Shown here piece after piece: positions 14,848 through 63,993 of a stretch of 64,000 bases of DNA. The stretch lies in the NCBI GenBank assembly GCA_937121175.1, contig CAKZKD010000003.1, positions 124,001 through 188,000 of the forward strand, in the 5' to 3' direction. The translations under genes and the position numbers were made by a program. Numbering within the stretch: the first letter of the stretch is position 1; each line of letters begins with the position of its first letter. The notes beneath the pieces were generated by a model that did no database searches, was not told the origin of the DNA, and saw nothing but the letters and a program-made list of their open reading frames with translations. The DNA is from an uncultured Flavobacteriales bacterium (GTDB lineage Bacteria; Bacteroidota; Bacteroidia; Flavobacteriales_G; Salibacteraceae).

Positions 14848-14884
14848 AGAAAAACAAAGTACCATCAGAATACAACAAAAAGAC

Positions 14885-14898
14885 TTGATTTAAGTCAG
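14885..14898. promoter_or_regulatory. FNR/FixK-like palindrome upstream of hemN
   Basis: TTGATTTAAGTCAG resembles the FNR consensus TTGAT-N4-ATCAA and is one base different from the site at 34982-34995 before ccoS. On the minus strand a weak -7 box (GTACTTTG) lies about 33 bases downstream of its centre. That spacing fits a class II activator site near -41.5. Confidence 0.6.
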
Positions 14899-14920
14899 TT
14901 TACGAGCAGATTTTTACTCG

Positions 14921-17077
14921 TTATTTGATCAAGTTCATTTCCTCTACTAAATGTCCTGAATCGGCATATTTATCGACAATAAACAGTACATAACGGATGT
15001 CCACCATAATGTTTCTGCATATAGTAGGGTCGAACATAATATCGCTCATGGTACTTTCCCAAGTACGGTCAAAATTTAATCCAATCAATTCACCGTTTCC
15101 ATTTAATGCTGGGCTTCCAGAATTTCCACCCGTGGTATGATTTGAAGCAATAAAACACACGTGCATTTTGCCATCAGAATCAGCATATTGTCCGTAATCT
15201 TTGTTCTCAATTAGAGTAACTAGTTTTTTTGGAACAGTAAATTCTTTCGTAGTATCTTTTTTAGCCAAAATTCCTTCTGTGGTTGTGAATGGGTAGTATT
15301 TCACACCATCCTTTGGCTCATAGCCATCCACTTTGCCGTAAGCAATCCTCAACGTGCTATTTGCATCTGGGTAGTATTTTTTATCTTTTGGTAGCAATGT
15401 CATTAAACCTTCCATGTAGGTTCTATTCAGTAAATTCAGTTCGTTGTTCAATCGAACTAGTTCTGGTCTTATGTTCTTCTGGTAATTGTTGTACAAACTC
15501 ATGCAAAGTTTGTAGGCTGGATCTTTTTGGATTTTTTTGAATGATTTTTCTCCTTTGTATTTATCTAAAAACGCATTCACTTTTTCTAACGAAGTAAAGT
15601 TTGATTTCTTGAATAGCCTAGCTGCATATTTTTCATAATCTCCTCCAAAATCATCTTCTACAGTTGCGTAAATGGCTGCTCGTTTAGTTTCATCCAAAAC
15701 AGATAAATATTGTTTTAACATGGCACCGAGTAACTTTTGGTCGGTAGCATCGTGGTAGTTTTTAAAATGTCCTTTTGCAGATTTCTTTAAACCCTCAAGT
15801 GTTTTCTCAAGATCTTCAGGTTTGAGTTTTTCCGGGTTCAATTTATTGAAGTTCATGGCAAACCGAATGACCTCAGGGCCGTAATAATAGATTTCAATAA
15901 ACATGTCCCAGCTGAAAGCATAAGGCTCTATCTCTTTATATAGGACTTCGAACTTATTCAGAATCTTGGTGTATTTAAGTCCGTGCTTGGGAATACTCAT
16001 ATTGGCATTTGCTAAAAACCGTTTCTCTAATTCTTGTTTTTTGGCAATTGCATCATTGGCAATTAGACCTTTATTTTGGCCAATCCATTTTTTCCAGGCG
16101 TTTGCAATTCTAGATTGTTTTGCGGCGTATTGAATTCTGACCTTATCGCTAGTTTTCATAGATGCCCCTATTATATCTAATGATATGTCTCTCATTTTTA
16201 TTCTATTTGGATTTTGTTTTTTGATCGTGTATTCCACCGCGTATGAGGTCAAATATTCACTTGTTCTACCAGGGAAACCGTAAATCATGGTAAAATCTCC
16301 TGGTTTAGTTCCATTCATATTAATGGGTAAAGAGTACCTTGGTTTGTAAGGAACATTATCGTCTGAAATATCCGCCGGCTTATTGTCTTTATCTGCATAA
16401 ATTCTGAACATGGAGAAATCTCCAGTGTGCCGCGGCCAAACCCAATTATCGGTATCAAACCCAAATTTCCCTATGGAAGAGGGAGGCGCACCAACCAATC
16501 TAACGTCATTGTACTTTTCCGTAAGAAACATATAATACTGATTGCCATAAAAGAATGGTCTTATAATGTACTCGTAGTGGGTTCCTTCTACAGCAGATTT
16601 TCCAATGACCTTGATAGTTGAATCTATAATAGCTTGCCTTTTCGCCTCTGGCATTCCATCTCGTGTATTTGCAAGTACCTTTTTTGTAACATCTTCTATT
16701 TTAATTATAAACGTTGCAAAAAGGTTAGGGTTTTTCAATTCTTCTTCTTTAGATTTTGCCCAAAACCCGTTGGTCAAATAGTCATTCTCTACTGAACTAT
16801 GCGTTTGAATTTGGTAGTAACCGCAATGATGGTTGGTTAGCAATAATCCGTTATCGCTAATCATTTCAGCTGTGCAACCGCCATTAAAATGGACAATGGC
16901 ATCTTTTAAACTTGATTTATTGAAATTGTAGAGGTCTTCCGCCGAAAGCTTCATTCCCATACTTTGCATATCAGATTCCACCAAGTTTTTAATTAAGGAA
17001 GGAATCCACATTCCTTCTTTTGCTCTTGAAGAGAATGTAAGGCCGAGAAGTAATACTGCTATGCAAAATTGTTTCAT
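14921..17077 (-). CDS. dpp11: S46 family dipeptidyl peptidase, DPP11-like
   Basis: This is an S46 serine exopeptidase that removes dipeptides from the N-terminus of oligopeptides, normally in the periplasm. A signal peptide occupies residues 1-19 (cleavage near SSRA-KEG). The catalytic His lies in LLTNHHCGYY and the catalytic Ser in TGGNSGSPALNGNGEL. The following GLNFDRTWE carries Arg at the position that is Arg in Porphyromonas DPP11 and Gly in DPP7. This predicts preference for Asp/Glu at P1 (known for the family; applied here by inference). Length (718 aa) is full. It lies upstream of hemN in the same direction with no obvious terminator between, so some read-through is possible. With DPP4 and the POT transporter in this window it suggests peptide catabolism. 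Confidence 0.9.
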   Translation of the reverse strand: MKQFCIAVLLLGLTFSSRAKEGMWIPSLIKNLVESDMQSMGMKLSAEDLYNFNKSSLKDAIVHFNGGCTAEMISDNGLLLTNHHCGYYQIQTHSSVENDYLTNGFWAKSKEEELKNPNLFATFIIKIEDVTKKVLANTRDGMPEAKRQAIIDSTIKVIGKSAVEGTHYEYIIRPFFYGNQYYMFLTEKYNDVRLVGAPPSSIGKFGFDTDNWVWPRHTGDFSMFRIYADKDNKPADISDDNVPYKPRYSLPINMNGTKPGDFTMIYGFPGRTSEYLTSYAVEYTIKKQNPNRIKMRDISLDIIGASMKTSDKVRIQYAAKQSRIANAWKKWIGQNKGLIANDAIAKKQELEKRFLANANMSIPKHGLKYTKILNKFEVLYKEIEPYAFSWDMFIEIYYYGPEVIRFAMNFNKLNPEKLKPEDLEKTLEGLKKSAKGHFKNYHDATDQKLLGAMLKQYLSVLDETKRAAIYATVEDDFGGDYEKYAARLFKKSNFTSLEKVNAFLDKYKGEKSFKKIQKDPAYKLCMSLYNNYQKNIRPELVRLNNELNLLNRTYMEGLMTLLPKDKKYYPDANSTLRIAYGKVDGYEPKDGVKYYPFTTTEGILAKKDTTKEFTVPKKLVTLIENKDYGQYADSDGKMHVCFIASNHTTGGNSGSPALNGNGELIGLNFDRTWESTMSDIMFDPTICRNIMVDIRYVLFIVDKYADSGHLVEEMNLIK

Positions 17078-35050: not shown

Positions 35051-38000
35051 TTACTGCACAATCAGCTTATGACTGTGATTTTCACCATCGACCGATACGT
35101 TAATCATATAACTTCCTGCAGCTAATTTCTGATTCATTTCAATAGCTACAACAGAATATTCCCCTTGGTTAATTACCGTAAAATCAGTTAGATAGGATTT
35201 ACCAATGAAGTCATTTATTAGCACGTTAATTTCTGCAGCGTCAGCGTTTGGAATTTTCATGTACATGTTATGTCCATTACTAGGGTTGGGGTATAACTCA
35301 ACATGCATATCGTTAGGGTGCTCACTTAACTCAAACAATACTTTTTCTAAGTCGAAATATTCAGTTTTTCCGTCAAAATCCGTTTGACTCAAACGGTAGT
35401 ATGAGATACCATCTGAAGGATTGTAGTCTTTTTCATGGTATTCCGTTTGTTCATTTGTAGTTCCTTGTCCTGCAACTTGAACAACTTCTTCAAATGTGTT
35501 TAGGTCTTTTGTTTTTTCTACGGTAAAGAAGTCATTGTTGATTTCAGAAGAGGTAATCCAAAATAAATCAACCACTTTTTCTCCTGAGTTTGGCTTAGCT
35601 TCAAATTTGGTTAATTCAACTGGAAGCGGGTTATTGTTGGTGTTGGAAGCAAGTACAAAAGGGCTAAAAGTGGTTACTCGGGCAGGAGTTCTCAATCTTC
35701 CAGCGGTTGTATTCCCCTCAAAATTTCCTCCGCCATGGTTGTCCCATAGACTTACTCCATCCCAACGAGCAACCAATAAGTCATTAATATCTGTAACTCC
35801 ACCGCTATTGGTGTCCCAATATAACCATACATAAACATTATTTGAACCTGCAACTCTGTCCAATATCCAATACTCAGTTGTGCTAATGTGTTCTATTCCA
35901 GCAGCATAAGAGGCTGAACCATAAGCCCAGTTTGTTGTTGGGTCAACTTCAAAGTACTGTGCTCTAAAACGACCAGACGATGAATTTGGACTATGGCTTG
36001 CAATTCTAATTTCACGGTATTGGCCGTTGTCTCCAGTGGGGAAGGTAAAATCGTCATTTCCAATTTTTTCGATTGGACCATCAACGTGTGATGCATCAGA
36101 AGCACCTGTGACAGTTGCATTATCTCTTATATAAACCAGCCCAGAAGTGGAGGTGTTTAGGACTCCGTCAGTAAAGGTTACTGTAGTAGGAATTTCAATT
36201 GGTGCATTAAGTGTAACGCCAGTCGAAGTATTATTTAAGGTCATTCTTCTTACCAACGTAATTCCTGAAGCCCCTAAATCATTAAAAGATTGTGCTGCCG
36301 AGCCATCCCATATAATCGTACCATTGTTTTGAGCCAAATACAGTTGACTATTAGAATTGACGTTAATATCTCCAGCAAAAGTGCTGGGTTGATTGTAAGC
36401 AGGATGTAAAGTTCCTGCTGTCTTTATGAATGTAGCATTACCGTTGTAATCGTTTGCAACATTATTAGCCAATCTTAAGCGACCCGAACTGCCCATATTA
36501 ATTGTGACATTCCCATTGAAAGTATTGTCTCCGTATGAATCGTTATTAGTAGAACCTGTCATAGTTAAGGAAAAGTCCCCAGAATAAGTGGTTGTTCTTC
36601 CATAATATCTCGGTGCTGACACTGTCATGTTCCCACCAAATGAAGAGGTATAAGGATAGTAGCGAGCTGTTCCGGTCAAGGTTAGGGTTGAAGCTGCGTT
36701 ACCAAGCTGAGTGAAGTTTCTGATTTGTAGCTCTCCTGCAACGTAACCAGCTCCTCCGGTTGAAATTGAACCACCAGCTGATTGAGTTGCATTACCATTA
36801 GAACTTCCAAAGTAAATACCGTCACAAGAAGCGTTGGTAGATTCTAAGCTGATATTTCCACCATAATTAATTAAACTATTCGTTTCTTGATTACAATATA
36901 CTTGACTGTTACCTGCAGCTGAAGAATTTGTAATCGAAAGGTCACCAGATAAAGTAATATCTCCGCGTCTTCCAAAGTAACATCGGCTAGTAGAACCAGA
37001 ACCAGCATTTGTAAGAGTTGCATTTCCACCAATTGTCAAAGAACTAGCGTTTTCGTTACTGATGTAAATATTCACCGTTCCAGTACCATTATTAGTTGCT
37101 GTTAAATTACCACCAATGGCATTCCCTGCAGAATTGTGAGCAATGTACATGTTATCAGATCCTGTAGCTATCATAGTTAAGCCAGATGCCCAAGTGTCGG
37201 CAGTTCCGTTGCCCATAAGGAAATAACCAGAACCTGAGTTTCTCATAATGCACGCACCAGTAAAACTGTTTCCACCTGGAGAAGCGTCATCAGTTGCTCC
37301 GGTTTTTTCTAAATCTGAAGTACCTGAATAGGTTGTGCCACGAGTGTAAAACCTCGGCGCCTCAAAATTTACATTCCCTCCCCAGGCAGCATCATACTGA
37401 ACCATATAGGCTGTTCCTGTTAACGCTAAAGCTTGTGCCGTTCCGCCAGTTTGCGTAAAGTTTCTAAACCGAAGTTCGCCTGCAACAAAACCACCACCAG
37501 AAACGGTAATCGTTCTAGTATTTGCTAAAATTCCTGATCCACCATTTTGCCCAAAGCGAACACCATCTCCAGAAGCATTAGTATTTTCAACGGTGATGTT
37601 TCCATTGTACATATTCAACCCATTTCCTCGGTCGTTGCAGTAAACCTCAGAATTAGTGGCAGAACTTGTATTACTAATACTTAAATCGCCATTAAATGTC
37701 ATGTCCCCATTATAACCAATGTAGGTTCGTTTAGTAGTACCTGCACCTGTGTTCGTGTAACTACTATTGCCTCCAATAGAAACCACCGAAGTAGAACCCA
37801 TTCCACTATACATTTCACCTGTAGTAGCAGTGCTTGAATTAACAGCGGTTAGATTTCCAGAAACTGTTAGGTCTCCGTTCTCTGTCAAACGAATTCTTTT
37901 AGTCGTCCCTGATGCACTGTTTGTCGCGCTTAAGTTGCCATTAATAATTACAGCACTGTTCGTAGCGTTGGCCATTCGAACTTCTGCATTAGCACCTGTT

Positions 38001-41000
38001 CCGTTATTAATTAGTGTCACATTATTATTGAATGTAATATCACCAGAGTTGCCAACATAAATAGTGCTACTCGTTGCATTACTGAGGTTAGAAATAGCAG
38101 TGGTTCCAGTAACCACAAGAGTTGAGTTCGTATTATCAGAAATGTAAATTCTATTGTCTGTACCTGTTCCGTTGTCTGTTACAGTAAAATTTCCTCCTAT
38201 AGTATTTCCTGCACTATTTCGGGCTATATACATGAAACGGTTAGAGTTGTTGGTCATTGTTAAGTCGGCACCAAATGTATCTGGACTACCTTCTCCCATA
38301 GAAAAGGTATTTGTTCCGTTATTTATTAGAGATGTATTTCCAGTGAAAGCATTTCCTCCCGGACTTCTATCGTCACCAGCGTTCGTTTTTGTTAATGAAG
38401 AAGTTCCTTGATATGCGGTTCCTCTTGTGTACATCCTACCAGACGAAAAAGTTACATTTCCACCCCAGTCTGAATCGTAGTTGTAAATGTATCCGGTGCC
38501 AGTATTAGTTAGTGTTTGTGCAGTAGGTCCAACTTGCGTAAAGTTCCTAAATCGCAAATCACCACCAATAAAACCACCTCCACCAACTGTAATCGTTCTG
38601 GTTGCAGCTAGAGTACCCGTTCCTTGTTGCCAACCAAACCAAACACCGTCGCTTGCTGCATTAGTTGACTCTACAACTATATTTCCGTTGTATGTCCCAA
38701 CACTACTAGGTCTGTCGTTACAATAAATATGAGAATTGGTTGCCGAAGAACTATTTGTAATTGACAGGGTAGATGTAACCGTAACATCACCATTATTACC
38801 AAAATAAATACGCTTGTCATTTCCAGCACCAGAGTTTGTTAAAGTCGCTGTTCCGCCGATTGACACAGTTGAACCAGAGCCACTTGCTATGTATGCTGTC
38901 CCATTCGTTGAGGTAGTGTTGTTGTTTAGTATGAGATTTCCTGTTAAAGTAACATCCCCACTATTTCCAAAATAGCTGTTATGAGTAGTACTTCCAGAAC
39001 TTGTATTTGTTAGCGTTGCGTTTCCTCCAATGGTAACTAATGATGTGGCATTTTGAGCTACAGAAATATTGGAGGAAGTACCCGTAGAATTGCTATTTAT
39101 TACTAAATCTCCGGTTAGTGTTACATCTCCATCGTCTCCAAAATAAAAGTTGAACGCACTGTTACTAGGAGAGTTTGTAATCGTTGCATTTCCTCCTATC
39201 GAAAGGGTAGAGGCGGCGAGATCACTTATGTATATATAGCGAGTAGTTGTAACGTTTGCTGTGTTATTAATCACAAGATTACCTGTTATGCTATTTCCGG
39301 CACTGTTGTATGCTAAATACATATTATGCGAGCCCGAATTATTCATGGTTAAATTAGCAGAAAATGTGTCTGGAGCTCCATCTCCAAATAGTAAGTAACC
39401 TGATCCTTGGTTGTTTAATGTGCAATTTCCCGTAAAAGTATTTCCACGTGAGTTTCTATCGTCTGACGCACCAGTCTTTGTTAGTACCGATGTGCCTTGA
39501 TAAGTTGTACCCCGGGATACAATTCTACCCGAACTAAATGAAATGTTTCCACCCCAATCGGAATCCCAATTATAAATGTAACCGAGGCCTGAGTTAACCA
39601 ATGATTGCGGGGTAGCTCCAACTTGAGTGAAGTTTTTAAAGTAGATATCTCCTGCAGTTATACCACCTCCAGATGCTGTAACTGTTCTTGTTGCTGCGAG
39701 AGTACCGCTACCACCAGCGTTTGAAGTTCCAAAGAATACCCCGTCAGAAGCAGCGTTGCTATTTTCTAGGGTAATATTGCCATTATATGCATTTACGCTA
39801 CCGGGCTGATGATTGCAATAGATTTGTGAATTAGTGGCCGAACTGGTGTTCTCTATATCTAAATCACCGTTAAAAGTAACATCACCATAGTGACCAAGGT
39901 ACATTCTTTTTGTGGTTCCAGCTCCAGTATTTATAAATGAGGCATTTCCTCCAATGGTTACCGTTGATAGCGCATTATTTGCAACATAAGTGTTTGCATT
40001 AGTTCCAGAAGCTGAGACATCAACCGTAAGCGTTCCTCCTATAGTAACGTCTCCTTGCTCGCCTATGAAATTTATATGATTATTACTGGAGTTAGTTCCT
40101 GTCAGTGATACATTTCCTGTAACTGCTAAACTTGAAGCACTACTATTCGCAAGTACAATTCTTGAGTTATTTGCAGTAGCTGAATTCGTTGTAGTTAGGT
40201 TACCACTTACGTTTACATCTCCAACATGAGCAAAATAAATATTGGCTTCGTTGGTAGAGGTTGCAGCATTGTGTGCAGTCGCATTTCCTGTAATGTTCAG
40301 TCCAGATGTATCAACAGAACATAAGTACATGTTAGATGTGGACACAGAGCCTGTGTTATTCATAATTAGATTACCACCGATTGTACTGGCTGGAGCGCGA
40401 TAAGCAAAATAAAAGGTGCTTGAACCTGAATTGTTAAGAGTAACATCCGCAGAGAAAACATCGTTTGTACCATCTCCAAAACGCAATTCACCAGAACCAC
40501 TATTTGTAATAATTGCATTTCCGGTAACTGTATTACCTCCATCGCTTTCGTCTCTCGATCCTGCTGTTTTTTCCAATGTCAAAGTTCCTTGATAGGTGTT
40601 GAATTGACTGATAATTCTTCCAGAAGTAAAATCAATATTACCTCCCCAATTGGAGTTTTCAATAAAAATTAATCCTGTTCCGCTATTAGTGAAAGTTTGA
40701 GCTGTGGGACCAACTTGAGTAAACCTTCTTAAATATAAGTCGCCGGATATAAACCCTCCAGCTCCAACAGAAATTGTTCTGGTAGCGGCAAGAGTTGCGG
40801 AGCCACCACTATTTCCGAAAAACACTCCATCGCTTCCGGCAATGGTGCTACTTAGAATAATATTTCCATTATAGACTCCAACACTATTGGCATTTTGGTT
40901 ACAAGAAATGCGACTGCTTCCCGCAGTCGATGAGTTAATAAGAGTCATGTCGCCATTTACCGTAATATCTCCATTTTCTCCAATAAACATTCTAGCATTA

Positions 41001-44000
41001 GCTCCACCACCAGATTGTGTATAGTTTAAGTCGCCTTGAATAGTAACCGAAGAGTTCGAGCCTTGAGCAATGTACGAATCTGGAGTAGTGGAGGTGGTTG
41101 CTCGATTCCAAGTAACGTTTCCACCGACTGTTACATCACCTTCTCTTCCTAATCTTTCACTTGAAGTAGTCGAGCTAGCAGAAGCTGTAATGTCAACATT
41201 TCCAGTAATTGCGAGAGTAGAAGCAATTTGATCAGAAAAATAGAGCCAAGTACTGGACCCTGTTCCTGAATTGGTGGCAGTTAGATTTCCAGCGATAGTA
41301 TTTCCTGCACCGTTGTAGGCCAAGTAAATTCCTCTGGTACCAGAATTATTAACCGTTAAGTTGCCTCCATAAGTATCAGCTGTTCCATCGCTCATTAGAA
41401 TATATCCAGCATTAGTACAGTTCAAAATAGCATCTCCGTCAAATGTGTTTCCACCGGCAGAGCGGTCATCACTGGCACCGTTTTTTGTAAGTGAGGAAGT
41501 TCCTCTGTAATGAGTACCTCTCGTAATCATTCTGGGTCCTGAAAAAACAACGTCTCCTCCCCAATCACTATCATAATTATAAATAATACCCGTACCACCG
41601 GTTATGGCAAGCGATTGCGCTGTAGCTCCTGTTTGGGTAAAATTTCTGAAATATAAATCTCCAGAAATAAACCCTCCACCACCAACAGAAATAGTTCTCG
41701 TAGCAGCTAGAGTCGAACTCCCTCCCGCGTTTCCAAAGAAAACTCCATCGCAAGCCGCATTTGTAGATTCAACGGTAATGTTTCCGCCATAGGTTGCAAC
41801 ACTATTCGTATTGTGATTACAATAAACCTGTGAATTGGTTGCTGAACTAATGTTTGAAATACTTAGATCTCCAGTTAGCGCAATATCTCCCTGATTTCCA
41901 AAATAGACTCTTTTAGTGGTTGAGGCTCCTGTATTTGTTATTATTGTGTTTCCTCCAATAGTTAATAAAGAAGTAGCATTTTGAGAAGCGTAAATTTCTG
42001 ACGATGTACCAGTTCCTGAATTCGTTAAGGTCAAGTTCCCGGTTAAATTAATATCACCATCATCAGAGAAGTAAACCCGACTGTTCGAGGCGGACGAAGT
42101 GACATTCACAATTGCATTGCCACCTATTGAAAGTGCAGCGGTTGCGCCATCACTGATGTATATGTACGAATTGGTTCCACTTGTAGCTTGATTTATAGTT
42201 AAGTCACCCGCAATAGAATTACCAGCACTGTTATATGCCAAATACATATTTCTAGATCCGGTATTGTTCATGGTTACATTGGCCCCGAAAGTATCTCCTG
42301 TGCCATTCCCCATTAAAAAATAACCGCCTGCACTTGAACAGTTCAGTATTGTATTACCGTCAAATTGATTTCCACCTAAGGATTGGTCATCTCCCGCTCC
42401 ATTTTTTGTTAAGGTACATGTTCCACGGTATCTCGTTCCTCTGGTGAACATTCTGGGTGAAGAAAAAACAACGTTTCCGCCAAAATCGCAATCGTGAATG
42501 TCTAGAGCTCCAGTACCAGCGATAGCTAGAGATTGGGCCGTTGAGCCAGTTTGAGTAAAGTTTCGAATGCGCAAATCTCCACTTGTAAATCCACCCCCAC
42601 CAACTGAAATGGTTCTCGTGGCGGCTAAGGTTGATGACCCTCCACTTTCTCCAAAATAAACTCCATCAGTACCTGCTCCAGTTGACTCAACTATAATGTT
42701 ACCGTTGTATATATTCGTACTATTAGAGCTATTATTACAATAAATTAAACTGTTTGTTGCAGTACTAGTATTTGTAAGTGACATGTTTCCATTTACCGTA
42801 ACGTCTCCATTAGACCCAATATAAAAACGGCCATTGCTGGTGCCTCCACCATTTGCGACTGTTAAATCTCCATTAATGGTAACTGCAGAAGTAGCTGATT
42901 GTGCAATGTATGTTTCGGTAGATGATACGTTAGCTGTATTGGTCCATGTTAGATTTCCTCCGATTGTTATAACTCCGTTATCCGCTATTCGACTATGACA
43001 ATTTGTAGCAGTTCCAGAAACAGTCATATTGAAGTTTCCGGTTATATTTAGGTTTGCAGTACCTCCAGCACAGACATAAATGAATGCGGTAGTTCCTGAT
43101 CCAGAGTTCGTTGCAGATAAGTTTCCACCTAGAGTATGACCAGGTCCATTATTTGCCAAATAAATACCACTAGTTCCTGTGTTATTCATTGTAACGTCGG
43201 CTGCAAAATTGTCCGCAGTGCCATTTCCCATCATAAAGTAGCCACCACCTGAACAGTTTAGAACAACATTGCCGTCGAATTGATTTCCACCAGGAGATTG
43301 ATCGTTTGAAGTACCATTTTTTGTGAGGGTGGCTGTGCCTCTGAATCTAGAGTCCCTAGTATAAACTCGTGGCGCTGAGAAAACTACATTTCCACCCCAA
43401 TCGCAACCATCCAAATAAAGGTAGCCCGTACCCGTTAGGGCCAAATTTTGATTTGTTGCACCAGTTAGGGTAACATCTTTTAGACGAAGCTCACCCGCTG
43501 TAAAACCTGAACCACCAATTGTTATGGTTCGCGTTGCTGCTAATGTCGCTGAGCCGTTGCTGTTTTGACCAATTCGAACTCCGAGACCATTTGTGGAGTT
43601 TACAACAATATTTTGATTGAATTGGGTGCCGGCCGAATTGTATGCCAGATAAATACCACTGGTGCCAGTGTTTGTACAAGTCAAAGCTCCGTTGTAGGTA
43701 TCCGAAGCAGTATTGCCTGTCATTAAATAGCCTGAACCCGAACAAATAAAAGATGTGGTACCGTTAAAAGTATTTCCTCCAGTTCCAACATCGTTACCAG
43801 CTCCATTTTTGGTAAAGATTGCGGTACCATTGTAAACAGAACCATTGAGATAAAGACGGTTTGACGTTACTGAAATATCTGGATTGAAGGTAGTTCCTCT
43901 TAATTGAGTTGTTGCCGTTGAGGTTATAGACAATGCTCCTCCAGAAGTATTATTAAAAGTCCCGTCTTCGAAATCATTATTGATAGCACCATTAATGGTG

Positions 44001-44299
44001 AGGTTATTACCGTTAAGGTCTATAGTTGCTGTGAAACCAACTGAGATATCTATTCCTCCAATGGTGGGGGCCATATCTAGGGTGAGATTCACGTTTCCAT
44101 TTGAGTTAAATAAGGCTCTGTCTCCGGCAATCGGCACAGATGCTCCACCAGCTCCACCGCTTGTTGTGGACCAGTTGCCTGTTTCATTCCAATTGTTATT
44201 CGTGGTCCCAATCCAGTAACGATCTACAGCAAATATTTCTATGGTAAATAGAAATAGGACGGTACAAATGAATAATTTATTTAAAGACATGTTTTGCAT
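35051..44299 (-). CDS. Giant secreted T9SS repeat protein with nested beta-strand repeats
   Basis: A 3082-residue exported protein made almost entirely of short beta-strand repeats. Signal peptide about residues 1-24 (IEIFA-VDRYW). The first module (WIGTTNNNWNETGNWS) is the G8-like/autotransporter-associated start seen in Bacteroidota filamentous adhesins. Eight large repeats follow. Most carry TLAATRTI, a GG(G)F..G(D/E)L strand, an R(N)FTQ.G segment, an S(D)WGGN(V) strand and a NGA(G/S)DD...GGN(T/Q)F block. Between these are ~28-residue subrepeats of the GGNATLTNTGSG type. Residues ~2720-2900 form a distinct domain ending near TTFSPFVLAS. Then come a fibronectin-like linker (VELTKFEAKP) and the C-terminal T9SS type A domain (YPNPSNGHNMYMK to HKLIVQ). 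Predicted long beta-helical surface fibre; ligand unknown. MSLNKLF at 44290 is an alternative start. Confidence 0.86.
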   Translation of the reverse strand: MQNMSLNKLFICTVLFLFTIEIFAVDRYWIGTTNNNWNETGNWSTTSGGAGGASVPIAGDRALFNSNGNVNLTLDMAPTIGGIDISVGFTATIDLNGNNLTINGAINNDFEDGTFNNTSGGALSITSTATTQLRGTTFNPDISVTSNRLYLNGSVYNGTAIFTKNGAGNDVGTGGNTFNGTTSFICSGSGYLMTGNTASDTYNGALTCTNTGTSGIYLAYNSAGTQFNQNIVVNSTNGLGVRIGQNSNGSATLAATRTITIGGSGFTAGELRLKDVTLTGATNQNLALTGTGYLYLDGCDWGGNVVFSAPRVYTRDSRFRGTATLTKNGTSNDQSPGGNQFDGNVVLNCSGGGYFMMGNGTADNFAADVTMNNTGTSGIYLANNGPGHTLGGNLSATNSGSGTTAFIYVCAGGTANLNITGNFNMTVSGTATNCHSRIADNGVITIGGNLTWTNTANVSSTETYIAQSATSAVTINGDLTVANGGGTSNGRFYIGSNGDVTVNGNMSLTNTSTATNSLIYCNNSSNSTNIYNGNIIVESTGAGTDGVYFGESGGSSTLAATRTISVGGGGFTSGDLRIRNFTQTGSTAQSLAIAGTGALDIHDCDFGGNVVFSSPRMFTRGTRYRGTCTLTKNGAGDDQSLGGNQFDGNTILNCSSAGGYFLMGNGTGDTFGANVTMNNTGSRNMYLAYNSAGNSIAGDLTINQATSGTNSYIYISDGATAALSIGGNAIVNVTSSASNSRVYFSDDGDINLTGNLTLTNSGTGTSSEIYASQNATSLLTIGGNTIITNTGASTTKRVYFGNQGDIALTGDLSISNISSATNSQVYCNHNTNSVATYGGNITVESTNAACDGVFFGNAGGSSTLAATRTISVGGGGFISGDLYFRNFTQTGATAQSLAITGGTGIIYNYDSDWGGDVVFSGPRMITRGTHYRGTSSLTKNGASDDRSAGGNTFDGDAILNCTNAGYILMSDGTADTYGGNLTVNNSGTRGIYLAYNGAGNTIAGNLTATNSGTGSSTWLYFSDQIASTLAITGNVDITASASSTTSSERLGREGDVTVGGNVTWNRATTSTTPDSYIAQGSNSSVTIQGDLNYTQSGGGANARMFIGENGDITVNGDMTLINSSTAGSSRISCNQNANSVGVYNGNIILSSTIAGSDGVFFGNSGGSATLAATRTISVGAGGFISGDLYLRRFTQVGPTAQTFTNSGTGLIFIENSNWGGNIDFTSGRIISQFNTYQGTLTLEKTAGSRDESDGGNTVTGNAIITNSGSGELRFGDGTNDVFSADVTLNNSGSSTFYFAYRAPASTIGGNLIMNNTGSVSTSNMYLCSVDTSGLNITGNATAHNAATSTNEANIYFAHVGDVNVSGNLTTTNSATANNSRIVLANSSASSLAVTGNVSLTGTNSSNNHINFIGEQGDVTIGGTLTVDVSASGTNANTYVANNALSTVTIGGNASFINTGAGTTKRMYLGHYGDVTFNGDLDIENTSSATNSQIYCNHQPGSVNAYNGNITLENSNAASDGVFFGTSNAGGSGTLAATRTVTASGGGITAGDIYFKNFTQVGATPQSLVNSGLGYIYNWDSDWGGNISFSSGRIVSRGTTYQGTSVLTKTGASDDRNSRGNTFTGNCTLNNQGSGYLLFGDGAPDTFSANLTMNNSGSHNMYLAYNSAGNSITGNLVINNTANVTTTRYIYISDLAASTLSIGGNATITNSPSNSAFNFYFGDDGDVTLTGDLVINSNSTGTSSNISVAQNATSLVTIGGNATLTNTSSGSTTHNSYFGNSGDVTLTGNLILNNNTTSTNGTAYIASGSGSTVSIGGTATLTNSGAGNDKRIYFGNNGDVTVTSTLSITNSSSATNSHIYCNDRPSSVGTYNGNIVVESTNAASDGVWFGWQQGTGTLAATRTITVGGGGFIGGDLRFRNFTQVGPTAQTLTNTGTGYIYNYDSDWGGNVTFSSGRMYTRGTAYQGTSSLTKTNAGDDRSPGGNAFTGNTSLINNGTNTFSMGEGSPDTFGADLTMTNNSNRFMYIARNSAGNTIGGNFTVTDNGTGTDNRIYISDNTNSTLVVTGTTAISNLSNATSSTIYVGNSGDITFNNNVTLINNGTGANAEVRMANATNSAVIINGNLSATNSASGTTKRIRLTENGDLTVSGNLTAVNSSTATTGEMYSGMGSTSVVSIGGNSSYTNTGAGTTKRTYIGYNGDMTFNGDLSISNTSSATNSEVYCNDRGNGLNMYNGNITVENTNASGDGVRFGQNGGSGILANTRTITVSGGGFVAGELRFRNFTQTGGTAQALALTGTAYMVQYDAAWGGNVNFEAPRFYTRGTTYSGTSDLEKTGATDDASPGGNSFTGACIMRNSGSGYFLMGNGTADTWASGLTMIATGSDNMYIAHNSAGNAIGGNLTATNNGTGTVNIYISNENASSLTIGGNATLTNAGSGSTSRCYFGRRGDITLSGDLSITNSSAAGNSQVYCNQETNSLINYGGNISLESTNASCDGIYFGSSNGNATQSAGGSISTGGAGYVAGELQIRNFTQLGNAASTLTLTGTARYYPYTSSFGGNMTVSAPRYYGRTTTYSGDFSLTMTGSTNNDSYGDNTFNGNVTINMGSSGRLRLANNVANDYNGNATFIKTAGTLHPAYNQPSTFAGDINVNSNSQLYLAQNNGTIIWDGSAAQSFNDLGASGITLVRRMTLNNTSTGVTLNAPIEIPTTVTFTDGVLNTSTSGLVYIRDNATVTGASDASHVDGPIEKIGNDDFTFPTGDNGQYREIRIASHSPNSSSGRFRAQYFEVDPTTNWAYGSASYAAGIEHISTTEYWILDRVAGSNNVYVWLYWDTNSGGVTDINDLLVARWDGVSLWDNHGGGNFEGNTTAGRLRTPARVTTFSPFVLASNTNNNPLPVELTKFEAKPNSGEKVVDLFWITSSEINNDFFTVEKTKDLNTFEEVVQVAGQGTTNEQTEYHEKDYNPSDGISYYRLSQTDFDGKTEYFDLEKVLFELSEHPNDMHVELYPNPSNGHNMYMKIPNADAAEINVLINDFIGKSYLTDFTVINQGEYSVVAIEMNQKLAAGSYMINVSVDGENHSHKLIVQ
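36700..43600 (-). repeat. Eight large repeats with two length classes in the giant T9SS gene
   Basis: Using the codons of the RTI motif as anchor, copies lie near 43527, 42612, 41694, 40776, 39684, 38595, 37512 and about 36766 (the last diverged). Spacings are 915, 918, 918, 1092, 1089, 1083 and about 746 bp: three units of ~306 codons, three of ~363 codons and a short last one. The ~57-codon difference equals two ~28-residue subrepeats. Confidence 0.75.
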
Positions 44300-57885: not shown

Positions 57886-57894
57886 ATTTGTAAT

Positions 57895-58659
57895 ATGGCA
57901 GATAAATTCGGTGTAGTAATTCAAGCGAGAATGGGGTCAACACGACTTCCAAAAAAAATGACCATGCCATTTGGCGAGTCGGATACAGTGCTTTCGTTCA
58001 TCATTAAAAGAATTCAATTAGCCTTTCCAAATCAATGTATAGTTTTAGCTACCTCGAATAGTGAAAAAGACCAAGTGTTGGTCGAAATTGCCAAAGACAT
58101 AGGGGTCGAGCATTTTTGTGGAAGTGAAAATGATGTTTTAGAACGCTTTATTGGTGCGGCAGAAAAGTTTGGAATTACGACAACACTGCGTGTGTGTGCC
58201 GACAATCCTTTTTTGTCAATTGATTACCTTGCTGCCATTTCGGCTGAGTACCAAGTTAGGTCAGTTGATTATTTATCGTACCGATTGCAAGACGGAACAC
58301 CTGTAATGAAATCACACGTCGGGTTTTTTACTGAGATTATTAGTCTTGACGCACTGAAGAAAGCAGCTGAATGTACCGACAAGGCTTTTTATCACGAACA
58401 CGTAACCAATTACATTTATGGAAACCCAGATAAATTTAAGGTTTTATTTATCAATATTCCAGAAAATATTGATCAAAGTAACTACCGATTAACGTTGGAT
58501 ACTATTGAGGACTACAACGTGCTAAACGCGGTGGAAAAATACTGCAGAATGAACTTTACGGGAGCTGATATTTATTCTCCAAACCTAGTTTTAAAAGCAG
58601 TCGAAGAATTGAATCTATACAAACAAATGGACGAATCGATAAAGAATAATCCAAAATGA
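57895..58659 (+). CDS. spsF: SpsF-like cytidylyltransferase family protein
   Basis: A 254-residue nucleotidyltransferase of the SpsF/CMP-KDO synthetase type. The N-terminus GVVIQARMGSTRLPKKM is the nucleotide-binding loop, and VCADNPFLSIDYL carries the metal-binding Asp. In surface-glycan loci SpsF is thought to activate nonulosonic or related sugars with CMP (inference). I start at ATG 57895 (MADKFGVV) by family alignment. The ATG of neuB overlaps its stop as ATGA, so the two are translationally coupled. Confidence 0.87.
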   Translation: MADKFGVVIQARMGSTRLPKKMTMPFGESDTVLSFIIKRIQLAFPNQCIVLATSNSEKDQVLVEIAKDIGVEHFCGSENDVLERFIGAAEKFGITTTLRVCADNPFLSIDYLAAISAEYQVRSVDYLSYRLQDGTPVMKSHVGFFTEIISLDALKKAAECTDKAFYHEHVTNYIYGNPDKFKVLFINIPENIDQSNYRLTLDTIEDYNVLNAVEKYCRMNFTGADIYSPNLVLKAVEELNLYKQMDESIKNNPK

Positions 58660-59696
58660 ACGATATATACATCATAGGCGAAATAGGACAGAACCACAAT
58701 GGTTCTGTTGAGTTGGCTAACGTAATTATTGACCTGATTTCAAAGCCAATAGAGGAGTCACTGTTTAACCTTGAGTTAAAAGGAATGGATGCTGTAAAGC
58801 TCACCAAAAGAGATTTGAATTACGAATTGTCGGCCTCACAAATGGATAGGATTTACGATACACCAAATTCATTTGGAAGGACGTATGGCGAGCATCGCGA
58901 TTTCTTGGAACTGAACGACGAAGAGCATTTTGAGGTTTACAAACACGCTAAGTCAAAAGGATTAGATTTTGTAGAAACATTGTGCGCGCCTTCCTGCACC
59001 TCAATGTTTAAATATTTTGAACCAGACTATCTTAAAGTAGCGAGCAGAGATTTGACTAATCTGCCCTTGTTAGAAGTTTTGGCTGAAACTAAAATTCCAA
59101 TTATCGTTTCTACTGGTATGGCTGGTAAAAAAGAATTGGACAATGCCTTAGAATTAATAACGAAGTATCATAATGATGTTTCCATATTGCATTGTGTTTC
59201 AGAATACCCAACTAAACCCCACAACGTAAACCTGAACACGATTCCGTATTTAATGGAAAACTACCCAGATTATACCGTTGGATACTCAGATCACACCATT
59301 GGAATTTCTGCGCCAGTTGCGGCCTGTGCTATGGGAGCCAAGATTGTTGAAAAACACATTACGCTTGATCGCAGAATGAAAGGTACTGACCAAGCCGGAA
59401 GTTTGGGTCCAGATGGAGTGAATAGAATGATTCGCGACCTTCGATTATTGGAGCAATCATTTGGTGAAAAAGACATTTTTATTTCTGAATCTGTTGATGG
59501 TTCCCGTTATAAACTGGAGCGAAGTATAGCCTCAAGCAGAGCAATTAAAGCAGGTGAAACTGTTCAAGAATCAGATTTGCACATGCTAAGTCCAGGAGAT
59601 GGATACAAGTGGGCCGACAGAGCAGAATTAGTTGGGAAACAGGCAATATCGGATATTCCAAAGAATGAAATCATTTATCCTAAATTTCTTGCCTAA
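58656..59696 (+). CDS. neuB: NeuB-type N-acetylneuraminate/nonulosonate synthase
   Basis: This enzyme condenses phosphoenolpyruvate with an N-acetylated hexose (ManNAc or a bacillosamine-derived sugar) to form a nine-carbon acid. The TIM barrel (about 1-275) has IGEIGQNHNG, LKVASRDLTNLPLLE, STGMAGKKELDNAL, VGYSDHTIGI and EKHITLDRRMKGTDQ. The C-terminal SAF/antifreeze-like domain (about 285-346) has SRAIKAGETVQESDL. Length 346 is normal. Whether the product is sialic, legionaminic or pseudaminic acid cannot be read from one gene. It overlaps spsF (4 bp) and the HAD gene (1 bp). Confidence 0.92.
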   Translation: MNDIYIIGEIGQNHNGSVELANVIIDLISKPIEESLFNLELKGMDAVKLTKRDLNYELSASQMDRIYDTPNSFGRTYGEHRDFLELNDEEHFEVYKHAKSKGLDFVETLCAPSCTSMFKYFEPDYLKVASRDLTNLPLLEVLAETKIPIIVSTGMAGKKELDNALELITKYHNDVSILHCVSEYPTKPHNVNLNTIPYLMENYPDYTVGYSDHTIGISAPVAACAMGAKIVEKHITLDRRMKGTDQAGSLGPDGVNRMIRDLRLLEQSFGEKDIFISESVDGSRYKLERSIASSRAIKAGETVQESDLHMLSPGDGYKWADRAELVGKQAISDIPKNEIIYPKFLA

Positions 59697-60199
59697 TGCA
59701 ACTGCCTAAGCTTATTCTTACTGATATTGATGGCGTTTGGACAGACGGTTCCATGTACTATTCTAGCGATGGAGCCGAGTTTAAACGATTCAATACCTTT
59801 GATAGTTTCGGTGTTTTGTTGGCTCGCAAGGCAGGAATTCCAGTTGGGATAATAACCGGAGAAGACACCGAAATGGTGGAACGAAGGTCCAAAAAATTAA
59901 AACTAGAATTTTTAGTGCAAGGTTCAAGTGATAAAGTTGCCGACGCTACTGAAATTTGCAAGCAATTAGGTATTCAGCTATCCGACGTAGCCTACATTGG
60001 CGATGATATTGGTGATTATAAATTACTTCAAGCATGCGGTATTTCGGGGGCACCATCAAATGCAGCTGAGTTTGTAAAGCAAGAAGTAGATTATGTAACT
60101 TCACTAGGCGGGGGTTCTGGCGCGTTCAGAGATTTTGTGGAGTACATTTTTAAGGAAGTTGGTGTTTACGATAAATACCTCGACCAGCTAAAGCAGTAA
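59696..60199 (+). CDS. KdsC-like HAD phosphatase
   Basis: A 167-residue C0-type HAD hydrolase. The nucleophile loop is LTDIDGVWTDGSMYY, the second motif IITGED, the Lys is in SSDKVADA and the metal Asp pair in GDDIGDYKLL. These enzymes dephosphorylate KDO-8-P or nonulosonate-9-P. The one-base overlap with neuB suggests it acts on the NeuB product, which would imply a phosphorylated (9-phosphate) pathway like the eukaryotic/Bacteroidetes KDN or Neu5Ac-9-P route (inference). Confidence 0.88.
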   Translation: MQLPKLILTDIDGVWTDGSMYYSSDGAEFKRFNTFDSFGVLLARKAGIPVGIITGEDTEMVERRSKKLKLEFLVQGSSDKVADATEICKQLGIQLSDVAYIGDDIGDYKLLQACGISGAPSNAAEFVKQEVDYVTSLGGGSGAFRDFVEYIFKEVGVYDKYLDQLKQ

Positions 60200-60212: not shown

Positions 60213-61559
60213 ATGGGTTTCAATAGTTTCATTAAAGAGTTTGATAAAAAACACCAAGCTACCCAAGTATTATTCAAAGGCATAAACATTTGGCCTTACC
60301 TCCGGTTTTACGAATTGGACGTTCAGCATTTTAAAGAAAACAGGAAAGTAAAAGTTAGTTCAAGCCACATTGGTGTTGTATTATCGAGTCTGTTTTACGG
60401 TGTTTTTAATTGGTTTCGAGCTTATGATGCCGTAGTTTTTATGGTAGCCTCTGACCGTCGATTGGTAGATGGAACGTGGAGTTGTAAAACCGATAGAGTA
60501 GCGAAGCACTTTAAAAAAGTGCTGTTTATCGAAATGCCAAATACACAGAATAAAAAGCCTGTTCCGGCTGAGGTTGAATACGTTTCAAGTTCTGGCATTC
60601 TGTACTTGTTAGAAGCATTGTTAAAGTTCTTTCTCAAATTTTCAAAACTTCAATTAGCCTCGGACATTAACCTACAAATTAATTCTTCCCAAATTCTAAA
60701 TCAATTTCGTGCTCGGTACCTAGTAACCCAGTTTATTGTGCGCAACTTGAAACCAAAAGTCGCGTTTGTAAATGCCGCTTACGTTGATATGCCCAGAGTA
60801 TTGGCCTTAAAAGAAGCAGGAGTTACAGTGATTGAGATGCAACATGGAAATATTAATGAACACCACCATGGCTATCAAATTTATTGTCCGATTCACGCAA
60901 GTTTAAAACCCGACTTTCTGTTCAGTTTTGGTTTAGCCGAACAAGAAATGTTCAAGCATTCGAATTACATTGAAAGTGAGTGTGTTGTTCCGGTTGGTTC
61001 CTTTTATCTGGAACAAATTTCTACCAAATCGTCAAAAAGCGAAGTGGTAAATCAACTGAAAGAAGAAGGGAAGATAATTGTGGCGGTATCTGGCCAAGAT
61101 GCATACGACAAAGAATTGATTCAATTTATTAGCGAAGTTGGGCAAACGAAGAACGAAATAGCTTTTCTATACATGCCGCGGTCGAGAGGAAAATCAAGTT
61201 TGAGCGCCAAGTTTAAGCTCCCTTCAAATATGCACTTTGATGACACACTTAATGTGTACGAGGCCATGAAATTGTCCGATATACACACCACTGTAAACTC
61301 TACATGTGCTCTTGAATCTATTGCTTTGGGGACTCCAAATTTGTTATTCAATTTTGAAAATAAAGCGCATTCTTATTTTTCTAAAATAATAACCGACCAA
61401 AGTTCAACGTCTTACACGTCAAATCCTTCAGATTTTGTAGCGTTTGCAACAAAAATGGCTTCCCTAACTTCAACAGAAGTAATGGCGGCTAATGAAAATG
61501 TGTTTAAGCCGAAATTTTCCGAAAATTTTGACTCAGCAATGGAGGGGATAAATGCTTAA
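60213..61559 (+). CDS. Putative GT-B glycosyltransferase of the glycan locus (candidate NulO transferase)
   Basis: A 448-residue cytoplasmic protein not assignable to a named family by eye. The first half has FKGINIWPYLRFY, a motif seen in uncharacterised capsule/LPS proteins. The centre has VIEMQHGNINEHHHGYQIY, a Q-H-G...H-x-G-Y pattern found in GT-B enzymes such as capsule and Kdo/NulO transferases. The C-terminal half has NVYEAMKLSDIHTTVNSTCALESIALGTPNL split by loops, the typical nucleotide-sugar site with Glu. Context with spsF, neuB and a HAD phosphatase makes a CMP-nonulosonate donor plausible. It starts 13 bp after the HAD gene, and overlaps wzx by 8 bp. Confidence 0.6.
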   Translation: MGFNSFIKEFDKKHQATQVLFKGINIWPYLRFYELDVQHFKENRKVKVSSSHIGVVLSSLFYGVFNWFRAYDAVVFMVASDRRLVDGTWSCKTDRVAKHFKKVLFIEMPNTQNKKPVPAEVEYVSSSGILYLLEALLKFFLKFSKLQLASDINLQINSSQILNQFRARYLVTQFIVRNLKPKVAFVNAAYVDMPRVLALKEAGVTVIEMQHGNINEHHHGYQIYCPIHASLKPDFLFSFGLAEQEMFKHSNYIESECVVPVGSFYLEQISTKSSKSEVVNQLKEEGKIIVAVSGQDAYDKELIQFISEVGQTKNEIAFLYMPRSRGKSSLSAKFKLPSNMHFDDTLNVYEAMKLSDIHTTVNSTCALESIALGTPNLLFNFENKAHSYFSKIITDQSSTSYTSNPSDFVAFATKMASLTSTEVMAANENVFKPKFSENFDSAMEGINA

Positions 61560-62808
61560 GAGCGGAAATAAAAAATTAGTAGGTAATTTCCTTACTTATG
61601 GTGCAACAAACTCGCTTGCATCAGGATTGCCACTTCTTATTCTTCCTTTTTTAACCAAGTTTTTATCTCCAGAAGATATAGCGCTTATAGCTGTATTTCA
61701 ATTACTTTTTAATGTGCTCAATCCGTTCGTTGGGGTTAACGGAGTTGCGCTGTCAAGTGTAGTTTATTATGAAAAAACCGAACAAGATTTTGTAAAGCAC
61801 AGAAACGCTTTTTTTAGTTTAATTCTGCTATCGAGTATCGTCATTGCGGTACTGTTTTATGCTTTTCAGAATTTCTTAATCGAGATTACAGCAATTCCAT
61901 TAAAATGGCTTCTTTTTATTATCGTTTACGCATCATTTGAAAAGGTAGCAGAATTTCTTTTAGCGCATAAAAGGCTGTTAAATAAGGCATTGCATTTTGC
62001 AATTTGGCGCATAGCTCGTGTAGCTTTGGAGGTAGGTTTAACTGTGTATTTTTTGTTATATGTCAATCAAAACTGGGAATCTCGCGCTCTTGGAATTGCC
62101 ACGGCCGGTATCGCAATTGGTATAATTGCACTTGCGTATTACCTAAGAAAAGATTTTTCCTTATCCACAAACAAAGGTGAGATAAAGGAGATTTTAAATT
62201 TTGGATTACCGTACATACCCCACGTACTCGGCGGAGTAGTTCTAACGTATATGGATATTTTGTTTGTTAGGAATATGGTAGGTAATGAGGCCACTGGTTT
62301 CTATGCAGTTGGCTATCAAATAGGGATGATAGTTAGCTTGGTTCAAAACTCGTTTAATCAAGCGTGGGTACCATGGTTTTTTGCCAAACTAAAAGTGATT
62401 AATGATGACATAAGAACGCAACTCGTAAAGATTACCTACGGCTATTTCATTGCACTTTCAGTTTTTACCGCAGTTCTTGTAGTTACGCTTCCGTATGTGT
62501 TCGAATTGTTTTTCGATGAGCGATATACTCAGGCCATTCAATATGTTGGCTGGATTGCAGCTGGATATGCGGTGAATGGAATGTACAAAATGGTGGTTAA
62601 CTACCTGGTATTTTTAAAGCGAACCACCACAATTGCTTCCGTAACCATTGTGGTTGCTGTGCTTAATTTGGTATTGAATTACGTTTTAATCGATAAATTC
62701 GGAGCCATTGGTGCGGCACAATCCACATTTATTTGTTTTGCTATTCAATTTGTTGTGATTTGGGTAATCAGTAATAAGCAATATCCAATGAACTGGCTAA
62801 TGAGATAA
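61552..62808 (+). CDS. Wzx-type flippase (polysaccharide biosynthesis/MATE-like)
   Basis: A 418-residue membrane protein with about 12 TM helices. The start NFLTYGATNSLASGLPLLILPFLTKFLSPED is typical of Wzx/RfbX flippases that move lipid-linked oligosaccharides across the inner membrane. The later segment GLPYIPHVLGGVVLTYMD is family-like as well. It overlaps the glycosyltransferase gene by 8 bp and ends with no gap before the polymerase gene, so all are one operon. Confidence 0.88.
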   Translation: MLKSGNKKLVGNFLTYGATNSLASGLPLLILPFLTKFLSPEDIALIAVFQLLFNVLNPFVGVNGVALSSVVYYEKTEQDFVKHRNAFFSLILLSSIVIAVLFYAFQNFLIEITAIPLKWLLFIIVYASFEKVAEFLLAHKRLLNKALHFAIWRIARVALEVGLTVYFLLYVNQNWESRALGIATAGIAIGIIALAYYLRKDFSLSTNKGEIKEILNFGLPYIPHVLGGVVLTYMDILFVRNMVGNEATGFYAVGYQIGMIVSLVQNSFNQAWVPWFFAKLKVINDDIRTQLVKITYGYFIALSVFTAVLVVTLPYVFELFFDERYTQAIQYVGWIAAGYAVNGMYKMVVNYLVFLKRTTTIASVTIVVAVLNLVLNYVLIDKFGAIGAAQSTFICFAIQFVVIWVISNKQYPMNWLMR

Positions 62809-63993
62809 ATGATTGGACTTTTTACATATCTACCTACTGTATATGGCGTGCCACAGTTCACGTTTTTACTAGTTGTGCTTTTTGTTTTGATAAGAGATAG
62901 AGCGACAATTTTATTTCAATGTAAGGCCTTGTTTCAGAACCCAAAATCGGCGTCGGTCAATACATTGCTCATAATGGCAATATTGGTACTCAGTAGCATT
63001 AATTATTTTTTTGGATTTCATGAAACGCGATGGTCGGTTAACACCATTCACTTTACACTACTTTTTATTCCAACTCTAATTATTGCCCAGTTTTTAAGGG
63101 AATCGGATATTCGAATTTTATTGTATTGCATTGCCTTTGAATGTTTTATAAGCTTTGTAGAGTTTGGACTTGGGGTAAATACCATTTTCTTTTGGAGCCC
63201 AAAATTTACGCAGTTCCAACAAAACGACTTACTCTATTTCTCAAGACCGTTTGGTTTAAGCGCCAACTCTAGTGTTCTTGCTTTCAAAGCATTTATAGGC
63301 CTTTTGTTACTATATACGTATTCGTTTAAAGCGAATACAAGGAAAACCCTAACCATTGTTTTACTAGCAACCGTTATTATCACATTCGCGCGAACTGTTT
63401 CCATAGCATTGATAGTGCTGTTTGCAATTCTGAGTGTTGAGTATTTTTTCTCTAAAGAGAAAAGGAGCAGAACGCATTGGTTTGTATTTGGCTTGCTACT
63501 ATTTATGGTGTCTATTGCATCTATTGGCGGAATAGTTTACTATTATGACGTAATTGTAGCCCAGTTTACACGAAATACGGGAACCTTAGAAATGAGTGGT
63601 AGAGAGGCAATTTGGCCGTTCTTCTCAAACTTTGTATCTGAACATTTTTGGATTGGAAATGGATCTGTTAAAGTGTGGTTTGATAAATATCATGCTCACA
63701 ATTCATTCCTGCAACTACTTGCAAATCATGGAATTGCAATTGCATCGGCCTATTTTATACTCATAATCTGGAATCTGAAAAGAAGAAATGCAAAGGCGAT
63801 AATTCCAATTCTGATTTACAGTATAGCTCAATACGGAATCTTCTGGGGAGTGAGCTTAATGGACATTGTGTTTTTCCATTTTCTGCTGAGCTACAGCCCA
63901 ACTGAAGAATCAAATCGTTTTAACGAACTTCCACACCTCCTGAAGCAGGATAATGCCAATACCCACAATAACCCCAAGGAAAGTTATTCCTAA
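62809..63993 (+). CDS. Wzy/O-antigen ligase-type polymerase
   Basis: A 394-residue protein with about 10-11 TM helices and one large periplasmic loop (about 245-300). The loop ends in the Wzy_C-like motif YHAHNSFLQLLANHGI, characteristic of O-antigen polymerases and WaaL-type ligases. Polymerase versus ligase cannot be decided from sequence. The ATG directly follows the wzx stop. The hydrophilic Asn-rich tail ends 7 bp before the window edge, and the operon probably continues beyond it. Confidence 0.85.
   Translation: MIGLFTYLPTVYGVPQFTFLLVVLFVLIRDRATILFQCKALFQNPKSASVNTLLIMAILVLSSINYFFGFHETRWSVNTIHFTLLFIPTLIIAQFLRESDIRILLYCIAFECFISFVEFGLGVNTIFFWSPKFTQFQQNDLLYFSRPFGLSANSSVLAFKAFIGLLLLYTYSFKANTRKTLTIVLLATVIITFARTVSIALIVLFAILSVEYFFSKEKRSRTHWFVFGLLLFMVSIASIGGIVYYYDVIVAQFTRNTGTLEMSGREAIWPFFSNFVSEHFWIGNGSVKVWFDKYHAHNSFLQLLANHGIAIASAYFILIIWNLKRRNAKAIIPILIYSIAQYGIFWGVSLMDIVFFHFLLSYSPTEESNRFNELPHLLKQDNANTHNNPKESYS

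Follow-up and report, generated by a model that had tools for sequence, protein, structure and literature searches.

Which enzyme transfers the activated sugar is the question raised by a six-gene operon in a 64,000-nucleotide stretch of DNA (hereafter, the window) from an uncultured Flavobacteriales bacterium. Loci for nonulosonic acid (NulO) biosynthesis are numerous and known NulO transferases few by comparison, and a search of the open literature yielded no report of a bacterial Kdn transferase. The fourth gene of the operon had been put forward in a preliminary description as a candidate new NulO transferase. On the basis of profile comparisons, motifs and gene neighborhoods, we give a probability of about 70% to the reading that its product is a CMP-NulO transferase, probably using CMP-Kdn, that acts on a surface polysaccharide and has an altered donor-phosphate site.

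The six-gene operon and a predicted Kdn pathway

The six genes lie on the same strand and encode, in this order, an SpsF-like enzyme, a NeuB-type synthase, a phosphatase, the candidate transferase, a Wzx flippase and a Wzy-like protein (Table 1). According to the ORF coordinates, overlaps are present at the SpsF/NeuB (4 nt), NeuB/phosphatase (1 nt) and candidate transferase/Wzx (8 nt) junctions. The earlier term "overlapping six-gene operon" thus holds for most junctions, the exceptions being a 13-nt gap between the phosphatase and candidate transferase genes and the abutting Wzx and Wzy genes. The start of the SpsF-like gene is likely the ATG at 57892, with the longest ORF beginning at TTG 57835. 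Scanning the operon for promoters and terminators yielded no more than was found in shuffled sequence.

Table 1 Coordinates of the operon genes and of the motifs in the candidate transferase (window positions).
Feature	Position	Strand	Basis or remark
SpsF-like CMP-sugar cytidylyltransferase	57892..58659	+	Pfam CTP_transf_3 1.3e-19; PDB 6oew cytidylyltransferase 8.5e-33
NeuB-type ulosonic acid synthase, probably Kdn-9-phosphate synthase	58656..59696	+	Pfam NeuB 3.7e-62 and SAF domain
HAD phosphatase, KDN-9-phosphate phosphatase type	59696..60199	+	NF058599 equivalog 222 bits; best PDB match 3e81, 3.2e-49
Candidate CMP-NulO (probably CMP-Kdn) transferase, GT-B-like	60213..61559	+	448 aa, no Pfam family
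E208-x-Q210-H211-G212...H218-H219-G220-Y221 motif	60834..60878	+	Codons 208-222
(K/R)xHP donor-binding motif position, here L319-Y-M-P-R323	61167..61181	+	Window clade retains Pro, lacks K/R and His
S363-T364-C-A-L-E368, S(S/T)xxxE phosphate/ribose-binding motif position	61299..61316	+	Alignment
Wzx-type flippase	61552..62808	+	Pfam Polysacc_synt 7.4e-20
Wzy/O-antigen-ligase-like polymerase	62809..63993	+	Pfam Wzy_C 9.6e-8

The phosphatase, initially labeled kdsC, is better described as a KDN-9-phosphate phosphatase: it scores above the 180-bit cut-off of the corresponding equivalog model, and its best PDB match is an entry that we take to be the KDN-9-P phosphatase BT1713. The NeuB-type synthase scores too low for the NCBIfam cut-off of either model, NeuB or PseI; a homologue with 71% identity adjoins a KDN-9-P phosphatase gene at another locus (L073). 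Genes for NeuC, PseB/C/G/H and LegB/C were absent from the six-gene operon. Given the phosphatase assignment and the absence of these genes, the simplest reading of the operon is a Kdn pathway that would proceed from Man-6-P through Kdn-9-P and Kdn to CMP-Kdn. The NeuB-type synthase would condense mannose-6-phosphate with PEP, the HAD phosphatase would release Kdn, and the SpsF-like enzyme would activate it. The product of the fourth gene would then transfer the nine-carbon ulosonic acid, Kdn being the likeliest candidate, from the CMP donor onto a lipid-linked repeat unit, to be flipped by Wzx and polymerized by the Wzy-like protein in a Wzx/Wzy-dependent surface polysaccharide pathway.

Downstream on the same contig lie genes for a Wzz-like protein, a DUF6044 membrane protein, one GT4 enzyme and a WecB-like epimerase, followed by another Wzy_C protein, a DegT aminotransferase and a Bac_transf initiating transferase. 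The only other glycosyltransferase (GT) genes in the surveyed cluster encode the GT4 enzyme and one lipid-phosphate sugar transferase, which by elimination favors the fourth gene for the transferase role. The DUF6044 protein (L040:1742-3463, minus strand, 1.5e-139) is possibly a GT-C-like enzyme. Elsewhere in the window, positions 3892-13275 (plus strand) encode a probable type IX-secreted surface protein of 3127 aa, in which beta-helix/NosD-like repeats are combined with a C-terminal sorting domain of the Por secretion type, and a 3082-aa ORF at 35051-44299 (minus strand) has no Pfam match at 1e-5.

Family, predicted fold and conserved motifs of the 448-aa protein

The ORF of the fourth gene begins with ATG and contains no internal stops. 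It is a real gene, as it is intact and has full-length relatives (25-42% identity) within its own taxonomic order and in one farther genome of the phylum; a chance ORF was rejected. Many remoter relatives are spread over the class and phylum, and the nearest relative with a name comes from a Crocinitomicaceae metagenome-assembled genome. The genome-contig search for related loci returned one homologue, three scans of viral contigs returned none, and an alignment of seven relatives contained no stretch conserved enough to serve as a search query.

The preliminary description could not place the protein in a CAZy family. No Pfam model matches it at E<1, including those for GT29, GT38, GT42, GT52 and GT80, and none of 31 family members matches the Pfam sialyltransferase models at E<=0.1. 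The outcome named beforehand as refuting the proposal, a clear hit on a non-GT family or on a GT other than a NulO transferase, likewise did not arise in these searches. The Capsule_synth model (PF05159), which stands for KpsC/KpsS and is related to GT118, is not matched by the protein itself and only weakly by two of the 31 relatives (best 1.2e-4), and three members match Glyphos_transf weakly. The one noteworthy NCBIfam match is also weak: the BFO_1060 family glycosyltransferase model NF046086 (E 4e-6, 26.1 bits; curated cut-off 200 bits). This model is matched by 19 of the 31 members; TIGR04396, a surface carbohydrate biosynthesis protein model, is matched by nine relatives (best 6e-11) and not by the window protein. 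The protein belongs to an uncharacterized family that is found with NulO genes and is distantly related to a GT family named by NCBI, so that "new" applies to it in a relative sense.

The HH profile-profile E-values are from pairwise comparisons, so their ranking and the controls weigh more than the absolute numbers. The family profile (A4) matched best that of BFO_1060 (A8; probability 99%, E 2.4e-18, 237 columns), with homology over the C-terminal nucleotide domain, and the A1 profile also matched it (96.1%, 2.9e-9). Lower-ranking matches of the family profile were to the WecB-like (97.6%, 3.6e-12), Capsule_synth (96.3%, 1.9e-9) and GT4 (87.8%, 3.3e-6) sets, with the GT2 and NeuB controls at 0.1-0.3%. 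The profile of the close clade alone matched the PF05159 set poorly (8.5%). These matches support a predicted GT-B fold and place the family among GT-B enzymes, with BFO_1060 the closest of those tested; as the WecB and Capsule_synth profiles match too, the fold alone leaves the donor unfixed.

When the family profile was compared with PDB sequences, WecB-type epimerases ranked at the top, followed by KpsC chains (E 0.01-0.05) and then a WbbB-type chain; we take PDB entry 5fa0 to be WbbB. Entry 8csb is WbbB as well (PMC12887879). Cofilin in the same list is an evident chance match. An AlphaFold model built from two input sequences, the window protein and L068, was of low confidence (pLDDT 41.6, pTM 0.41) and carries little weight, so the Foldseek result obtained with it, WecB and MurG on top with TM below 0.3, is weak support.

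The QHG...HHGY motif highlighted in the preliminary description is present and is not a chance feature, since Q210, H211 and Y221 are invariant in the 31-member alignment, whose members are mostly 13-18% identical. G212, P233, G262, P322 and S363 are nearly invariant. In the profile alignment, H211 falls at about the Glu of the BFO_1060 SEG motif, and H211 or E208 is therefore the likely catalytic base.

The two C-terminal motifs can be read against the characterized CMP-ulosonate site, in which Pro packs on the cytosine, His and two Ser contact the phosphate and Glu contacts the ribose; sialyltransferases share the (K/R)xHP motif with retaining Kdo transferases, and the H227A variant of KrkA is inactive (PMC12887879). 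The S(S/T)xxxE motif is present in the window protein with the spacing of KrkA S271/S272/E276 (PMC12887879). Its first position is Ser in 29 of the 31 members (Pro in L031, Thr in L078), and the E368 position, five residues on, is Glu or Asp in all 31. The (K/R)xHP motif occurs in 22 of the 23 members outside the clade of the window protein and in none of the eight within it. These eight form one branch (support 100/98) with variants such as LYMPR, VYIPR, VFVPR and LFLPR, in which the residue after Pro is always basic (Arg in seven, Lys in L069).

Retaining Kdo transferases have a QxxxD nucleophile motif, which the window protein lacks: counted from the conserved Gln (QHGNI), there is no Asp at +4. 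A retaining Kdo-type mechanism was accordingly rejected, and inversion is probable. Donor, acceptor, stereochemistry and activity being predictions, the enzyme would hold the nucleotide in the C-terminal domain through the P322-R323 and S363-T364...E368 loops, the E-x-QHG loop would supply the base for a probably inverting transfer, and R323 may stand in for the HP histidine lost in the window clade.

Co-location with NulO genes and competing readings

Within about 10 kb on each side, where the contig allowed, NeuB was found at 21 of 28 family loci compared with 2 of 20 Wzx-anchored control loci from the same class (Fisher p = 8e-6); the seven family loci lacking NeuB include two stretches under 4 kb. 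The NeuB-bearing loci come from many genera. A strong NeuB match is present in 12 of 13 tested carrier genomes; in a sample of the class, any NeuB match was recorded in 101 of 149 genomes, many of these matches being weak and probably representing DAHP synthases. In the window clade, NeuB is found at six of the eight loci (among them L026, L031 and L069), and at one more, L028, a cytidylyltransferase gene lies next to the family gene. L027 has the same order of NeuB, KDN-9-P phosphatase and family gene, and L030 carries NeuB, a cytidylyltransferase-phosphatase fusion, the family gene, Wzx and Wzy. At L029, there is no NulO gene within ~8 kb, and NeuB is encoded elsewhere in the genome. At L073, which belongs to another branch, the synthase and phosphatase genes mentioned above accompany an HP-bearing family member.

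The wider family also occurs in Leg- and Pse-type loci. Two legionaminic-type clusters contain two family members each (L032:7666-9198 and 13486-15045; L033:7160-8662 and 13516-15018), which suggests that a single locus gives rise to two related sugars or linkages.

The original proposal of a NulO transferase is supported in large part, though not fully: the co-location with NeuB above the control level and BFO_1060 as the closest profile tested speak for it, the loss of the (K/R)xHP residues weakens it, and transfer itself is a prediction. This loss leaves room for a different donor and is the main doubt about the CMP-NulO transferase reading, although most members of the clade still lie beside NulO genes. 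The fourth gene product could instead be a GT-B enzyme of the same polysaccharide that uses, for example, a UDP- or GDP-sugar and adds a residue beside the NulO, with the NulO transferred by the GT4 enzyme or by one encoded elsewhere. Among the profiles, the second-best match is to WecB, which uses a UDP-sugar and also heads the weak lists of PDB and Foldseek matches, and L029 retains the gene-Wzx-Wzy order away from NulO genes. We nevertheless regard such a role as unlikely, though worth bearing in mind: six or seven of the eight window-clade loci contain NulO genes, the HP-bearing relatives are likewise found with NulO genes across Bacteroidota, and the best profile relative is itself a NulO-locus family. 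To our knowledge, moreover, no CMP-NulO transferase is known in GT4.

The absence of the HP histidine from the whole clade, together with Pro in place of Ser in the ST motif of L031, would also fit a degenerate GT-B protein that aids polysaccharide assembly without transferring sugar. The conservation of the E-x-QHG, PR and ST..E positions at 25-42% identity in different genera, and the lack of another plausible NulO transferase in the surveyed cluster, make this very improbable. Equally slight is the chance that a NulO transferase at this locus handles an acid other than Kdn, such as Neu5Ac, Leg or Pse. The Leg- and Pse-type loci of the wider family and the sub-threshold scores of the NeuB-type enzyme point that way, whereas the phosphatase score and the gene content of the operon point to Kdn; the identity of the NulO leaves the transferase reading unchanged.

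Returning to the CMP-NulO transferase reading, a bolder version of it, in which the proteins constitute a new Bacteroidota family of such enzymes and one clade, including the window protein, transfers Kdn with the neighboring Arg instead of the HP histidine on which other CMP-ulosonate transferases rely, is tentative and has somewhat less than an even chance. The family represents a defined candidate set across Kdn-, Leg- and Pse-type loci, and its HP-less clade would test the dispensability of the HP histidine. With only three genes, the donor pathway is compact enough for a practical one-pot assay.

Comparison with known transferase systems

The bacterial sialyltransferases of GT38, GT42, GT52 and GT80 resemble the predicted enzyme in their CMP-NulO donors and the wider family in their HP and S/T motifs; membership in these Pfam families was rejected by the searches above. 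The retaining CMP-Kdo/CMP-Pse transferases GT99 (WbbB), GT107 (KpsC), GT140 (KrkA) and GT118 (KpsS1) share with it the predicted GT-B C-terminal nucleotide site. The wider family has their (K/R)xHP and S(S/T)xxxE motifs and weak profile matches to KpsC and the PF05159 set, but no QxxxD at the QHG position, and the window clade lacks K/R and His.

BFO_1060 family members that score above the cut-off have NeuB or PseI genes adjacent at 12 of 13 loci. One such true BFO_1060 glycosyltransferase is encoded in the same genome as the window protein, in a legionaminic-type cluster on the same contig about 60-80 kb upstream of the first base of the window (L153, G000:C3:45000-64900). This second NulO cluster also encodes NeuB above the NCBI cut-off, LegB/LegC-like proteins, a hydrolysing-epimerase-like protein, a cytidylyltransferase and HisF/HisH/PtmG-like proteins, and the bacterium probably makes two different nonulosonic acids.

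In Tannerella forsythia, knockouts identified GtfS and TFUB4_00887 as NulO transferases; the two T. forsythia enzymes are 445 and 442 aa long, have D/E-D/E-G and HP motifs and attach pseudaminic or legionaminic acid, and the gene for the 445-aa enzyme adjoins pseI (PMC6388019, PMC6120980). The name BFO_1060 was not found in the literature searched, so we infer from the name and locus that the BFO_1060 family probably includes GtfS/TFUB4_00887, BFO_1060 being the same gene in another strain. The window protein differs from BFO_1060 in having QHG for SEG, another N-terminal region (IWPYLR motif) and, together with its clade, no HP, and it scores 26 bits against the 200-bit cut-off. Both are nonetheless GT-B-like, BFO_1060 proteins being about 440-490 aa long and encoded beside PseI/NeuB in NulO loci, and the C-terminal P, ST..E and acid/His-G positions are common to the two families.
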